IMG/VR virus record: IMGVR_UViG_3300036715_002570
Coordinates: 86,678 to 150,677 of that record
Length of the DNA: 64,000 nt
Direction: 5' to 3' (one strand)
From: a virus
The translations under genes were made by a program, and so were the position numbers. Below the pieces are notes generated by a model. The model was given only the letters and a program-made list of their open reading frames with translations. It did no database searches and was not told the DNA's origin. Of this stretch, positions 27,138-60,809 are shown in pieces. Each line of letters starts with the position of its first letter. Positions within the stretch are counted from its first letter, which is position 1.

Positions 27138-27297
27138 GGCATCCAAATCCATTCCAGTAGGCACCCAGCTACACCAGCCAGATTAACCAAGCCAAACCAC
27201 CCAGCCCAGAACGACACGTTCTTGCTGACCCCCCCCCCCCCGGATACGCCCACGTAACCAATCCGATCATCGCTAGCAACGTAAACGTCAGCATCAT
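27134..27297 (-). pseudogene. Small membrane-protein gene disrupted at a C13/G13 tract
   Basis: Reads MMLTFTLLAMIGLVTWAYP, then a run of 13 G (plus-strand C at 27229-27241), then, only if the run had 14 (or 11) bases, VSKNVSFWAGWFGLVNLAGV and a stop that forms the usual ATGA overlap with the next gene. At 13 the frame instead ends early. Length 164 bp is exactly one short of a multiple of three. Phase variation or a homopolymer miscount. Confidence 0.6.
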
Positions 27298-27561: not shown

Positions 27562-27680
27562 AGACATTTGAGCAAAAGTGATCACTCAACTCCGCCACAT
27601 TGTTGCTGATTTTCGCATAATGGGAACCACACCCAAGGGGAGGTAGTTCGTCATTATTGCGTTATATCCGCGTAATCTAC

Positions 27681-27866
27681 CCGTGGTCTCTGTTGATTAG
27701 TGCTGTTTTTAGCCATAATCAACATGATCTACCGGCGGATTATGTGCATAATCAACATGATCTGCACCGTGGTCTCTGTTGATTAGTGCTGTTTTTAGCC
27801 ATAATCAACATGGTCTGCACCGTGGTTACTAGTAAACATTGCTGTTTTAGCAACAATCAACACGGT
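27681..27866. repeat. Three tandem hairpin repeats
   Basis: Units at 27681-27730, 27767-27816 and 27820-27866 begin CCGTGGT and hold a hairpin: TGTTGATTA ... TAATCAACA with an inner GCT/AGC stem around a T4-5 loop. The first two are nearly identical; the third is diverged and contains ACTAGTAAACA (27828-27838). An extra ATAATCAACATGATCT lies between units 1 and 2. The region 27562-28002 has no gene. Confidence 0.7.
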
Positions 27867-27898
27867 TAACCCTATTGTCTCTCGACAATCTATAGGGT
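27866..27898 (+). promoter_or_regulatory. Hairpin promoter-like element
   Basis: AACCCTATTGTC (27868-27879) pairs with GACAAT..ATAGGGTT (27884-27898). TTAACC and TATAGG could serve as -35 and -10 (19-bp spacer). A similar TAACCCTATTGTC...AAGGGTTA occurs at 50695-50726. Confidence 0.45.
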
Positions 27899-28002
27899 TA
27901 TGACCAGTTTACAATCAGTTCTGTGAAAAACAGCATGGCCGATTTTACCGCAGATTCATGCGATTTCGGTGTGTTTTGAACCCGGGGCGAACAGACGTTT
28001 TG

Positions 28003-28191
28003 TCAACGCTTCGTGATCATGAACGTATGGCCGTCGGCAATGAACATCTCACAGACGTTCCTTCCGTCTCGATCATAGAAGTCAACGGTCCAAATGTCAT
28101 CGAACCGCTTGTTTGTGCTGTAAGATTCACCTTAAATGTCGTGTGTAACAAGCGCTCCCGCGCTGAGAACACTGATTTGGTATTTTTGCAT
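28003..28191 (-). pseudogene. Small gene with an in-frame TAA
   Basis: One continuous frame: MQKYQISVLSAGALVTHDI, TAA, then GESYSTNKRFDDIWTVDFYD and on to RDGRNVCEMFIADGHTFMIT. Both halves have coding character and share the frame, so a point mutation (for example TAC to TAA) has interrupted the gene. Family unknown. Confidence 0.5.
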
Positions 28192-28307
28192 TGTTTGTCC
28201 AGTCGTATTAGCGTCCGTTTAAGCAATAATCAACGCATATCTATTGTACATTATTAACCAATTTGACGTCAACGGCTGGTCGGTCACAAGTGACAGTGCG
28301 GGTTTAC

Positions 28308-28364
28308 ACCCACAATATGGGGCTTTCTACCCACAATATGGGTGTTTCCACCCACAATATGGGT
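28308..28364. repeat. Three iterons ACCCACAATATGGGK, 21-bp period
   Basis: Copies at 28308-28322, 28329-28343 and 28350-28364; each has ACCCA/TGGGT arms around CAATA. Two helical turns apart, so one DNA face is presented. Typical for a replication-initiator or repressor binding array. The rest of 28192-28849 has no convincing gene; it includes a leftward promoter candidate (TTGACG at 28610-28615, TATAAT about 28585) and repeat element 1. Confidence 0.75.
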
Positions 28365-28705
28365 GGTTAGCCCCCTGGGGAAAGCACCCACGATTGCCCC
28401 GTTGACCGGCAATAACCGTCGTCTTTGGGCGCTTGCCCCGTTGACCATCGTGTTCTGCCCGCTCATTACGCTCATTCTCACTTATACAGGGCGACCTCTC
28501 AAACTGTAACCAAGTCAACATGTACAAAGAGAACCCGACTTTTCCAAATGTCAACAGGGCAACCAAAAAGTTACACGCATCTGACATTATACATCAAGCG
28601 GTGTACAATCGTCAACTGAGGGTAAAATCCCATGCCAACCACTGCGTTTTGGGTGATACTCTCGGTTGGGATGGTGCGAGTTGCCGGGGGAGAAAAACAG
28701 ATAGG

Positions 28706-42160: not shown

Positions 42161-42202
42161 GTTGATGTGGCTGCTAGTTGGATGTATAGTAGCCACATCA
42201 AC
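42161..42202 (+). promoter_or_regulatory. Inverted-repeat promoter, 12-bp arms
   Basis: GTTGATGTGGCT (42161-42172) and AGCCACATCAAC (42191-42202). -35 TTGATG in the left arm, -10 TATAGT (42185-42190) just before the right arm, 17-bp spacer. Confidence 0.7.
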
Positions 42203-49388: not shown

Positions 49389-49753
49389 TGAGCCGCAAGC
49401 AACTACCAACCAAAGATGCACTCGGGAACGAAGTTGTTCTCGGTGCGACGTACGGGTACACCTCAACGGAAGGTAGCCGGGCGTCTGTTGTGATTGGTCG
49501 CACGATCAAGTTCTCTTCTTCCGGCTGGGTGTCCCTGAAGATGATCAGCCGCAAGGTGTTCATTAACGGTGAACAGACGGACGACGGGTGGGCTGATCAT
49601 CGGGCGAACAAGGTCGCGACCCAACCGTACTTGCTGTTCCCTGTTCCCTGTTCCCTGTTCCCTGTTCCCTGTTCCCTGTTCCCTGTTCCCTGTTCCCTGT
49701 TCCCTGTTCCCTGTTCCCTGTTCCCTGTTCCCGACCCGGTGTTGTCCCCCTAA
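49385..49753 (+). CDS. Hypothetical protein with heptanucleotide-repeat tail, 122 aa
   Basis: Residues 1-80 are a compact beta-rich domain (GNEVVLGATYGYTSTEGSRA, SLKMISRKVF). The last 35 residues are (LFPVPCS)n encoded by a CTGTTCC repeat. As 7 is not a multiple of 3, each gained or lost unit would change the frame of the tail. Confidence 0.7.
   Translation: MMSRKQLPTKDALGNEVVLGATYGYTSTEGSRASVVIGRTIKFSSSGWVSLKMISRKVFINGEQTDDGWADHRANKVATQPYLLFPVPCSLFPVPCSLFPVPCSLFPVPCSLFPVPDPVLSP
49634..49731 (+). repeat. Fourteen tandem CTGTTCC units
   Basis: Perfect 7-bp repeat, 14 copies, inside the 3' end of the 49385 gene. Confidence 0.95.
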
Positions 49754-49772
49754 CGCGATCGTACGGACAATC

Positions 49773-51797: not shown

Positions 51798-51980
51798 ATG
51801 ACTCCTCTGAAGATTGCCCTTGTTGCTGTGCTGACCACTCTCGCAGTGGTGTGCCTTCTCCCTGCGTTCGTATTTGGCGTTGGAATTCTCGCCACAATCG
51901 GCGCCCTGATCATTCACCTCGCTCCGTATCTTGCTGTCGGATTTGCGGCAGCATACGTGGTGCAAAAGGTGTGCAAATGA
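51798..51980 (+). CDS. Small membrane protein, 60 aa
   Basis: Two hydrophobic helices. ATGA overlap with the next membrane gene. Confidence 0.7.
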   Translation: MTPLKIALVAVLTTLAVVCLLPAFVFGVGILATIGALIIHLAPYLAVGFAAAYVVQKVCK

Positions 51981-52210
51981 AACAACTACTGATCGTGCTC
52001 GGTCAATTCTTTGGTGCAGTTGCAAAGATCGCACTAGCTTGCGTACTCGTCCCAGCGATGGTCGTGCTGGCTGTGATCCTGATCGGGTTGCTACTGTCTG
52101 CTCTTGCTGTTGCATGGGCGGTTGGGGCTCGCCTGACGATCAAGCAGAACAACGTGGTGATCGGCCATCTCCGCTGGTTTACGTTTACACCCGTTAGTCG
52201 GTTGCGTTAA
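51977..52210 (+). CDS. Small membrane protein, 77 aa
   Basis: Long hydrophobic stretch (ALACVLVPAMVVLAVILIGL then LLSALAVAWAVG) and basic C-terminus. Confidence 0.7.
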   Translation: MKQLLIVLGQFFGAVAKIALACVLVPAMVVLAVILIGLLLSALAVAWAVGARLTIKQNNVVIGHLRWFTFTPVSRLR

Positions 52211-52239
52211 TTAGGGTTTCTCCATAGAATAGATTCATC

Positions 52240-52800
52240 GGTTGAACGAAACGTTGCACGTAAAACTGCGAGGTTGAGTGAAGCAGATCCTCGTGGTTGG
52301 GGTTGCTCTTTGGAAGATAGGTCCTAGCCGATCGGGCCCTTGAAGGTGATCGGTCGCCGACTGACAGATTGTAGTGGCCACTACGTCGTTGGTCTAACCC
52401 CAGAGAAGATGTCGTATCTGGGACTGGTGGAGACTCTGAGAGTATGGGAGCGGGTGCATATCCCGCCTTGCTGTCTTGGTAATATGTCAGGGCATACGGT
52501 CGATTCCGTAGCGTGAGAGGGCCTGGGACTCCACCCACACATATTACTGACACTGCGAGTAGTTTACGCCTTAGGAGAACACATACTCGGACATCCTCTG
52601 ATTGCTAAAGCACGTACGCCCTAGCAATGACGCAGAGATTTATCAACGACGGTACGGTCGTCGGGAAACGCCCAGCACGCCACAAAGGTGCGCCAGATCG
52701 GTGGTAGGGGTTTTGAAAATAGGTGGCGGTGAGCCGAATCCTCACCGTTGCTTCTAAGTTGTTCGCAGATTGCCTAATGGGCAATGTCCGAACAATTTTC
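52240..52800 (+). ncRNA. Candidate large structured RNA, about 560 nt
   Basis: The region 52211-52823 has no gene, unlike the rest of the tightly packed window. It starts with a promoter, TTGCGT (about 52204) 17 bp TAGAAT, and ends with a long hairpin plus TTTT (52759-52799). Inside are several stems: GTAGTGGCCACTAC, GCGGGT/ATCCCGC, TACGG/CCGTA enclosed by GTAATATGT/ACATATTAC, and CGGTGAG/CTCACCG (52727-52747). Size and ornament recall phage ROOL/GOLLD-type RNAs; no sequence match claimed. Confidence 0.5.
52759..52799 (+). terminator. Terminator of the candidate RNA
   Basis: TTGTTCG cag ATTGCC / GGCAAT gtc CGAACAA, then TTTT. Confidence 0.7.
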
Positions 52801-52823
52801 ATCAACAGCGTGGAGCAAAGGCC

Positions 52824-53063
52824 ATGAAGCGCATCTATCAACTGAACACCACCCCGGTCCAATACTTCGAAACCAAGGAGGCGGCGAAGGTCGCTCGCGG
52901 TGCGAAGGTCCCCGCAAAGGACGACAAGCCGGAGCACTACAAGTTCACCGTGTCGAAGGGCCCGGATCATCCGAAGTTCGGCGAACGTGCGAACGAACGC
53001 ACGCACTCGTACAACAGCCGCTCCGGCGGTCACGACAACGGCTTCCCGGCCCGTCGCAAGTAA
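52824..53063 (+). CDS. Conserved hypothetical protein, 79 aa
   Basis: GGAGC 8 bases before ATG 52824. MKRIYQLNTTPVQYFETKEA, basic, Ser/Arg-rich C-terminus. Seen in other phages as an uncharacterised small protein. Confidence 0.7.
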   Translation: MKRIYQLNTTPVQYFETKEAAKVARGAKVPAKDDKPEHYKFTVSKGPDHPKFGERANERTHSYNSRSGGHDNGFPARRK

Positions 53064-53068
53064 GCGAT

Positions 53069-53122
53069 TTGCTGCTGGTCTCATAATCCAGCAGCAATAC
53101 GTGTGGTGCTACGTATTGCTGC
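53069..53122 (+). promoter_or_regulatory. Two mutually exclusive hairpins (attenuator-like leader)
   Basis: TTGCTGCTGG (53069-53078) pairs with CCAGCAGCAA (53088-53097), but GCAGCAATACGT (53091-53102) also pairs perfectly with ACGTATTGCTGC (53111-53122). The shared middle segment can form only one. It lies in the 288-bp gap before a membrane gene and tyrS. No classic T-box specifier was seen. Confidence 0.6.
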
Positions 53123-53351
53123 ACTGTTTGCCTGGAAACGTCAAAAAGGTGGGGCGGCCAGAATCACAGCCCCATCCTCGTCTGTATACGCGAGCAGAGT
53201 TGGATTTGAGCTTCGGTTATCCTGCGTAACGAGCAGGGCGTTAGATAAACGTGGACCTTTCCGGATAAGGGACATGCTGACTGCTGGTGTAAGTGTAACA
53301 CATCGATTCACCAACCTGCTCACGTATACGGATTTTCACAGGAGAAAAACA

Positions 53352-53525
53352 ATGTTGAAATGGATGTGTGCAGGCGCTGCAATCGGCGCCTTTATTGGTG
53401 GTCTGAGCTGCAGCGCGTTCCTGACGGGCGCACTGATTGGCGCAGGAGTGGTGTTCGGCTTCTACATGCTGTTTGGCATAACCGTGATCGTCGGACTCGT
53501 CAAGCTGTTCAGGGACGGCGTGTGA
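53352..53525 (+). CDS. Small Gly-rich membrane protein, 57 aa
   Basis: CAGGAG before ATG 53352. GAAIGAFIGGLSCSAFLTGA and a second helix. Its stop overlaps the tyrS GTG, so both are co-translated. Confidence 0.7.
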   Translation: MLKWMCAGAAIGAFIGGLSCSAFLTGALIGAGVVFGFYMLFGITVIVGLVKLFRDGV

Positions 53526-54721
53526 TCATCCCGGCTGTTGAACAACCGTTCATGACCACTATCGCGGGTAGCGTCTCTCTGACGCCGCGCGACGAGTGGG
53601 AAAAGAAGCTGCTGAAGTCCCAACAGACCGGCGTGCCGCTTCGGATCAAGCTCGGGTTCGACCCAACCGCTCCCGACATTCACTTCGGGCACGTCGTCGT
53701 CCTGCAGAAGCTACGGCAACTGCAGGATCTTGGGCATACGGTAATTCTGCTAATCGGTGACTTCACAGCCGCGATTGGCGATCCGTCTGGCCGCAACTCC
53801 ACCCGACCGGTACTGTCTCACCATCAGATTCAACTGAACGCGGAGACGTACTGCGATCAAGCGTGGAAGGTGCTCGACCAATCGAAGACGGAGGTCCGCT
53901 GGAACAGCGAGTGGTGCAACGCGCTTGGTGCACGTGGGCTGGTCGAACTCGCTGCCAAGCACACTGTCGCTCGAATGCTTGAGCGGGACGATTTCGCCAA
54001 GCGGCTGCAGGCTCAAACTCCAATTAGCATCCACGAGTTCCTGTACCCCCTGCTACAAGGCTACGATTCCGTCGCACTCAATGCGGACTTGGAGATCGGT
54101 GGCACAGATCAGACGTTCAACCTGATGGTTGGTCGTCAGCTGCAAGAAGCCTACGGGCTATCTCCGCAGTGCATTCTGACGATGCCGCTGCTGGTCGGGA
54201 CGGACGGCACGCACAAGATGTCGAAGTCGAAGAACAACTACATCGGTGTTGCTACGCCACCCGAACAGATGTTCTCGCAGGTGATGGCAATCAGCGACAA
54301 GCTGATGTGGGATTGGATTCCGCTGCTCAGCGGTAACGGACAGCTGGTCGCGCAAGCCCTTGTTCGTCGTTCTGATGTCAACTGCCGAGACATCAAGGTC
54401 ACCTTTGCAAAAGAACTGGTTACGCGGTTCCATTCCGCAGAACTGGCAGATCGTGCGCATGACGACTTTGTCAACCGTTCTAACGGTGGAATTCCGGCAG
54501 AAGTGCGCGACTTCTATGCATCAGGCGGCGCTCGTCCTGTCACATCCTTGCTAAAGGAATCTGGCCTGTGCCCCTCGATGTCTGAAGCCGGGCGAAAGAT
54601 CGAACAGCGTGGGATCCGCATCGACGGTGTGGTCGAGCAAGACAAAAGGCGCGTGATCGAACCAGGCACCTACGTGATGCAAGTAGGTAAGCGAAATTTC
54701 GCTCGGATCCATCTGTCATAA
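53522..54721 (+). CDS. tyrS: Tyrosyl-tRNA synthetase
   Basis: 399 aa from GTG 53522 (ATG 53552 is the alternative). Class I synthetase with HFGH (54-57, HIGH motif), FDPTAPDIHFGH, GDFTAAIGDPSGR, the tyrosine pocket QGYDSVALN and LEIGGTDQ.FN, and KMSKS (about 231-235). The C-terminal S4-like RNA-binding domain is complete (PSMSEAGRKIEQRGIRIDG). It is of the bacterial TyrS2/TyrZ type by these motifs. Charges tRNA-Tyr in the infected cell. A terminator follows. Confidence 0.93.
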   Translation: MIIPAVEQPFMTTIAGSVSLTPRDEWEKKLLKSQQTGVPLRIKLGFDPTAPDIHFGHVVVLQKLRQLQDLGHTVILLIGDFTAAIGDPSGRNSTRPVLSHHQIQLNAETYCDQAWKVLDQSKTEVRWNSEWCNALGARGLVELAAKHTVARMLERDDFAKRLQAQTPISIHEFLYPLLQGYDSVALNADLEIGGTDQTFNLMVGRQLQEAYGLSPQCILTMPLLVGTDGTHKMSKSKNNYIGVATPPEQMFSQVMAISDKLMWDWIPLLSGNGQLVAQALVRRSDVNCRDIKVTFAKELVTRFHSAELADRAHDDFVNRSNGGIPAEVRDFYASGGARPVTSLLKESGLCPSMSEAGRKIEQRGIRIDGVVEQDKRRVIEPGTYVMQVGKRNFARIHLS

Positions 54722-59879: not shown

Positions 59880-60154
59880 ACTGGATTCAACAATTAGTAG
59901 AACCGCTTGGGTGGTTCGGCGCTGCGGTGTTTTCGCTATCAGCGTTGCCTCAAGCATGGGTGTGCTGGAGGCAAAAGCATAGTAACGGCCTCGCATGGCC
60001 GTTCCTTCTTTCCTGGCTGGTTGGTTGTTCAACCATGCTACTGTACGTATCGCTGAAGGGACATATGCTACCTCTGCAGTGTAACTACGGTGTCAATCTC
60101 GCGTTGTTGCTGGTGATTGTTTGGTATAAACTATTCCCCAGAGACCCTTCCTGA
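59876..60154 (+). CDS. PQ-loop (SemiSWEET-type) membrane protein, 92 aa
   Basis: Three helices with SALPQAWVCWRQKHSNGLAW, the PQ motif and following Ser/Gly. SemiSWEETs transport sugars as dimers. Substrate unknown. Confidence 0.75.
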   Translation: MNWIQQLVEPLGWFGAAVFSLSALPQAWVCWRQKHSNGLAWPFLLSWLVGCSTMLLYVSLKGHMLPLQCNYGVNLALLLVIVWYKLFPRDPS

Positions 60155-60212
60155 AATTGTTGAATGCGGTAGGATGAGCAAGTACAGTAGTCCATATTGA
60201 AAAGGTACTACT

Positions 60213-60350
60213 ATGCCATTCCCTCAACCACTCCCAACTCCGCCCCACCGCAATCCGCCACCGCCGCCGTTCTATCCGTTCGATGACGAGGATGACGACG
60301 ACCCTGACGAGTTCGACCCACCTGTCCTTCCGGTCCCAACCAAGCACTAA
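60213..60350 (+). CDS. Pro-rich acidic micro-protein, 45 aa
   Basis: AAAGGT before ATG 60213. Pro-rich first half, Asp-rich second half (FDDEDDDDPDEFDPP). TACAGT -10 upstream. Confidence 0.55.
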   Translation: MPFPQPLPTPPHRNPPPPPFYPFDDEDDDDPDEFDPPVLPVPTKH

Positions 60351-60353
60351 GTC

Positions 60354-60809
60354 ATGAAATCGTTCAACCTATCCTCAAACTCGCTCCACTTCCGATTTGC
60401 AACTCTGTACGGGCCAGCATCACACTTTGCCATTGTGCAGGGGTATTACGATCTGTGTTCGTATATTCGTGCGGTGCTGCTGGGAATGTTTGTCGCGCTG
60501 ATCGGCACGGCAATTGGTGGTCTAGTGATCGGCCTGACGATTGGTGATATCGCTGCGTGGGTATCAGCAATGGCTCACCTGGGTCAGTGGATCGATCCAG
60601 AGCCTGGTTCCGTGATTACGATGATCGCCTCCGGCATCGCCAGTGTGATCGTGGCGATGATCTACACTCACCGGCGATATAAGCAATGGAAGGAAACGCG
60701 GCCGTGCCAGCCTGTGACCGCACCATCGAAGCCAAGCTTTGCTCAAATCGCCTACGAATCGCTACACAACCGGTTTTGCGGCACCATTTCTGTGGATGAC
60801 GCCGAGTGA
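60354..60809 (+). CDS. Membrane protein, 151 aa
   Basis: Two or three helices (AVLLGMFVALIGTAIGGLVI; ITMIASGIASVIVAMIY) and a soluble basic tail. ATGA-type overlap with the next gene. Confidence 0.75.
   Translation: MKSFNLSSNSLHFRFATLYGPASHFAIVQGYYDLCSYIRAVLLGMFVALIGTAIGGLVIGLTIGDIAAWVSAMAHLGQWIDPEPGSVITMIASGIASVIVAMIYTHRRYKQWKETRPCQPVTAPSKPSFAQIAYESLHNRFCGTISVDDAE

Follow-up and report, generated by a model that had tools for sequence, protein, structure and literature searches.

A candidate untranslated RNA of about 0.6 kb behind a predicted early promoter in a T4-like phage

The stretch of DNA analyzed here, referred to as the window, is 64,000 nucleotides (nts) long and spans positions 86678-150677 of the 150,677-base virus record IMGVR_UViG_3300036715_002570. 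The record belongs to a T4-like phage, whose capsid protein shares ~28% identity with its counterparts in Pseudomonas phages of the PA5oct group, and whose gene content includes rIIA/rIIB, a QueE-like gene, and an NMN adenylyltransferase gene. The leftmost 70 kb of the record carry at least 45 tRNA genes; the window contains none. Situated in the early/middle region of this genome is a block of 613 bases (window 52211-52823), delimited by the stop codon, at 52210, of an upstream gene encoding a 77-amino acid (aa) hydrophobic protein (51977..52210, + strand; coding score +11.2) and the start codon, at 52824, of a downstream gene encoding a 79-aa basic protein (52824..53063, + strand; coding score +25.6). 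The 77-aa protein has a weak PHROG match of unknown function, and the 79-aa protein has no Pfam, PHROG, or phage match. Further downstream lie a 57-aa gene at 53352 and the tyrosyl-tRNA synthetase gene tyrS (53522-54721), whose product shares 46.8% identity with a synthetase from contigs labelled Acinetobacter phage MD-2021a; a tRNA-Tyr is among the phage's own tRNA genes. The 288-nt gap that precedes the 57-aa gene and tyrS contains two overlapping, mutually exclusive stems (53068-53124), TGCTGCTGG/CCAGCAGCA and GCAGCAATACGT/ACGTATTGCTGC, in an attenuator-like arrangement. Elsewhere, a 1214-aa AAA-type protein (L004:2057-5701) looks as though it were split by an intein that carries an endonuclease-like insert; in other phages it matches mainly genes for helicases and homing endonucleases.

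That the 0.6-kb block is free of genes, as the initial annotation had it, is borne out by coding scores, Shine-Dalgarno (SD) criteria, and a second gene call. Under a simple codon model trained on the long open reading frames (ORFs) of the same phage and scored per 90 nts, the median best-frame score of the block is about -4.8, compared with +5.9 for genes, -2.9 for gaps, and -4.1 for tRNAs. Best-frame scores fall below zero nearly everywhere in the block, and neither strand has a frame that scores as coding, such that the coding signal across all six frames lies below that of ordinary gaps and at the level of tRNAs. The ORFs listed inside the block score from -1.9 to -28, those on the + strand start with GTG or TTG, and none combines an SD site with a normal start. 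Even when every ORF preceded by an SD is accepted, as in a second, generous gene call, all 613 bases stay empty. The codon model is imperfect, as some plausible small ORFs elsewhere in the phage score near or below zero, and small foreign genes can escape it; the block might on this account hold short genes missed by the tests, for example in the frames 52278-52343 and 52340-52516. These frames, however, start with GTG or TTG without a properly placed SD, match nothing in PHROG (E <= 1), and return only chance matches by tblastn (E >= 4). Hidden genes were hence rejected on codon score, SD placement, and the PHROG and tblastn searches, and their presence is highly improbable. Nothing else in the 150-kb record repeats the block or is antisense to it.

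At the head of the block lies a promoter match. Dyad counting in the intergenic DNA of the phage revealed a promoter family of the form GTTGA-N19/20-(G/T)ATA(C/G)T, and a two-block model of this family converged on 56 sites located 40-90 nts upstream of genes, the usual distance from GTTG to the start codon being ~50-66 nts. Between 29500 and 47900 of the window, nearly every small gene has its own promoter of the GTTGA-N19/20-GATACT type, ~55 nts before its start codon. A predicted early-type promoter on the + strand (52202..52230) extends over the stop codon of the 77-aa gene and consists of TTGCGT (52202-52207), a 17-nt spacer, and TAGAAT (52225-52230). It scores 12.2 under the phage's own model, a value reached by 1.1% of 57-nt windows of coding DNA, and it lies outside the 56-region set on which that model was trained; the promoter attributed to the block in the initial annotation is thus confirmed. 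Transcription from it is predicted to start near 52237. A distinct class of motif, CATAAATA/CATATATA, resembles T4 late promoters and occurs in 24 + strand copies within record positions 1-94,200 (to about window 7500), 23 of them intergenic and often ~35-60 nts before genes; the motif is not present in the remainder of the window.

What follows this promoter sets it apart from its siblings. Behind the other isolated family sites in the window, a small SD-preceded ORF, overlooked by the first gene call, is usually found within ~50-130 nts. Behind the promoter at 52202-52230 there is only a frame of 21 codons that starts with GTG and whose GAGG is poorly spaced, and the next credible gene is 623 nts away. 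The conjunction of a family promoter at 52202 with so distant a gene makes an untranslated RNA likely, and a promoter lacking a subsequent SD-preceded ORF constitutes the best evidence, at the level of prediction, for transcription without translation. The block is therefore likely copied, as far as can be predicted from its promoter, into an untranslated RNA of ~0.57-0.6 kb (52237..52800, + strand), measuring ~0.57 kb to the last hairpin, or ~0.59 kb if it extends as a leader to the next start codon.

What such an RNA would do admits several readings. In the one we tentatively prefer, host RNA polymerase would start near 52237 at the phage-family promoter and copy ~0.57 kb that stays untranslated; the RNA would then act by itself, as a non-coding RNA ending at a 3' double hairpin, while part of the transcription would continue into the 79-aa gene. 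We infer the transcription, the end point, and the function in trans of such a standalone RNA, which is a real possibility short of being probable. Consistent with it, the promoter belongs to a family that precedes at least 56 phage genes, was recognized from outside the training set, and lacks the customary ORF, while the six-frame coding signal is as absent as in tRNAs; its predicted ends and 3' hairpins, described below, also point this way.

The initial annotation had described many stems in the block, a description that fits only its 3' extremity. In 120-nt windows, the block folds the same as its surroundings. Pieces of its body on the + strand yield z scores of ~0 to -0.9 relative to shuffled sequences, that is, folding at the shuffled level, which argues against a standalone structured RNA; other 466-nt stretches of the same region reach z scores as low as -4.8. 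The whole predicted transcript has z = -1.9, with 3 of 100 shuffles equally stable, and in the computed fold its two ends pair with each other, a point in favor of a standalone RNA. A true structured RNA is nonetheless compatible with chance-level folding energy. The one part that beats chance is the 3' double hairpin (segment 52715-52800), which has z = -5.5 and is far more stable than its shuffles, none of 80 being as stable. Its first hairpin (52721..52753, + strand) has a 13-pair stem with several G-U pairs and a 7-nt loop. The second (52756..52799, + strand; z = -5.0) is followed by TTTT, and its sequence occurs just once in the window at up to three mismatches.

Whether this second hairpin ends the transcript is less clear than the initial annotation, which assigned the block a terminator, had implied. 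The strong hairpin itself (52756-52798) is there, but its U-tract amounts to UUUU followed by C, and a terminator scan did not list it. The hairpin also opens with a GTTG at 52758, 66 nts before the start codon at 52824, and as a promoter of that gene it scores only 4.8. In this it resembles the palindromes embedded in the early promoters of the phage: strong palindromes (z < -3) extending from the -35 region to about +10 occur in about 8 of 23 early promoters tested, with examples at 42161, 42587, 44440, and 44740, and such a promoter-embedded palindrome may represent an operator or a hairpin that overlaps the promoter. Given the poor U-tract and the likeness to promoter palindromes, the second hairpin is possibly not a terminator, which weighs against a standalone RNA; it might be a degenerate promoter or a terminator, or act as both at once.

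On another reading, the block would serve as a long 5' leader that controls the 79-aa gene, the 57-aa gene, and tyrS in cis, for instance via hairpins before the ribosome-binding site. Neither the gene at 52824 nor that at 53352 has a family promoter at the usual distance (best scores 4.8 and -0.7), which leaves the one at 52202 as the closest good promoter, and the stable hairpin ends 11-25 nts short of the SD and start codon of the gene at 52824. In its 5' promoter, its hairpin near the next SD, and its co-oriented next gene, the block is like an ordinary intergenic region, or an ordinary long 5' leader, in large T4-like phages. However, typical leaders at the promoters of this phage are ~20 nts long, far shorter than the ~0.59 kb that would be required here, and the lack of a scored promoter is common, being shared by 20 of the 52 genes in the region that follow a gap. 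Nor did Rfam provide a match to any known family of riboswitches or leaders, T-boxes included, and on that ground a tyrS T-box was rejected. A cis-acting leader is accordingly rather unlikely, if still worth entertaining.

Whichever way the RNA acts, it does not belong to a recognizable family. The Rfam covariance search proposed in the initial annotation yielded no credible match: the full collection at curated thresholds gave none in the window, and at permissive thresholds the block returned a single match, to the sequence profile of a human lncRNA (17.6 bits; gathering score 50), attributable to chance. Covariance models of tRNA, tmRNA, the group I intron, the T-box, and other Rfam families have no match in the block. 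A tRNA-like reading by eye of 52415-52545, where an anticodon-like stem GCGGG-loop-CCCGC accompanies a T-loop-like CGGTCGATTCCG, is unsupported by ARAGORN or the tRNA model.

The annotation had also suggested an RNA of the ROOL or GOLLD kind. ROOL is a homo-octameric RNA nanocage, and the covariance model of GOLLD has a conserved 3' region. The size does fit, the ROOL model having 574 positions compared with ~0.57 kb for the block, and as in ROOL, the block is a phage-encoded non-coding element with its own, here predicted, promoter; with GOLLD it shares the character of a large phage-encoded non-coding RNA, again a predicted one. The block matches neither covariance model, however. Across the whole record, the GOLLD model (RF02032) found nothing at E <= 10, and neither did the ROOL model (RF03087), which gave no match in control genomes either. 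The body of the block is, moreover, no more foldable than its shuffles, and the analogy to both classes comes down to size. The genomic setting differs as well: ROOL and GOLLD genes are often near tRNA islands (PMC12286853), whereas the block lies away from them, the nearest tRNA in the record being ~70 kb upstream, or ~20 kb if the record is circular. That the block represents a novel class of large structured RNAs in phages, as its first example, is quite improbable; such an RNA would be ROOL-sized yet unrelated to ROOL, made early from its own promoter, and active in trans.

The statement in the initial annotation that the genome otherwise wastes almost no space is not borne out. Even with the generous gene call, coding density is 73% for the record and 76% for the window. 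The block is only about the seventh longest run free of ORFs and tRNAs in the 150,677-base record, six others being longer, and further empty runs are nearly as large, such as 59880-60485. Among the ORF-poor stretches, 27586-28631 comprises 1 kb without ORFs that carries near-repeats of the type GTGGTCTCTGTTGATTAGTGCTGTTTTTAGCCATAATCAACATGATCTGC, and at about 49600-49770 a GTTCCCT unit is tandemly repeated inside an ORF-poor block of 0.95 kb. The existence of similar-sized ORF-free blocks counts against a standalone RNA, and by the same token, a genome that tolerates other empty blocks may harbor this one as a relic, in which one or two small early genes decayed or were deleted, leaving their promoter in front of functionless DNA. 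The early genes of this phage are indeed small (often 60-140 aa), each with such a promoter, and the chance-level folding of the body is what functionless DNA would exhibit. On the other hand, no coding or homology remnant survives in any frame, and the 3' hairpins are intact. We regard a relic as unlikely.

Conservation, which would speak for a standalone RNA, finds no relative to draw on, as none covering the block was found. The sole related contig in IMG/VR, IMGVR_UViG_3300035661_000018 (109,519 bases), is 100% identical where compared, and ends at record position 113,947 (window 27270), short of the block. A run of 13 C lies within window 27229-27270, ~30 bases before the end of this second contig, and that end is likely an assembly break point. 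Comparing the block with phages and plasmids by blastn produced nothing beyond chance; searching the neighboring proteins against IMG/VR and GTDB genomes found no relative of the block; and three exact 16-17-base words from the block, sought in IMG/VR, gave matches that extend no further than chance.

Together, these observations make the block an orphan RNA candidate of modest interest, and a clean one: its promoter is precisely placed, no gene stands behind it, and it comes from a phage lineage without sequenced relatives. To our knowledge, large phage RNAs are few, and their functions are still unknown. Should the block prove to be both transcribed and structured, these few would gain an orphan, and it would mean that such RNAs can occur in the early region of a phage genome, away from tRNA islands.
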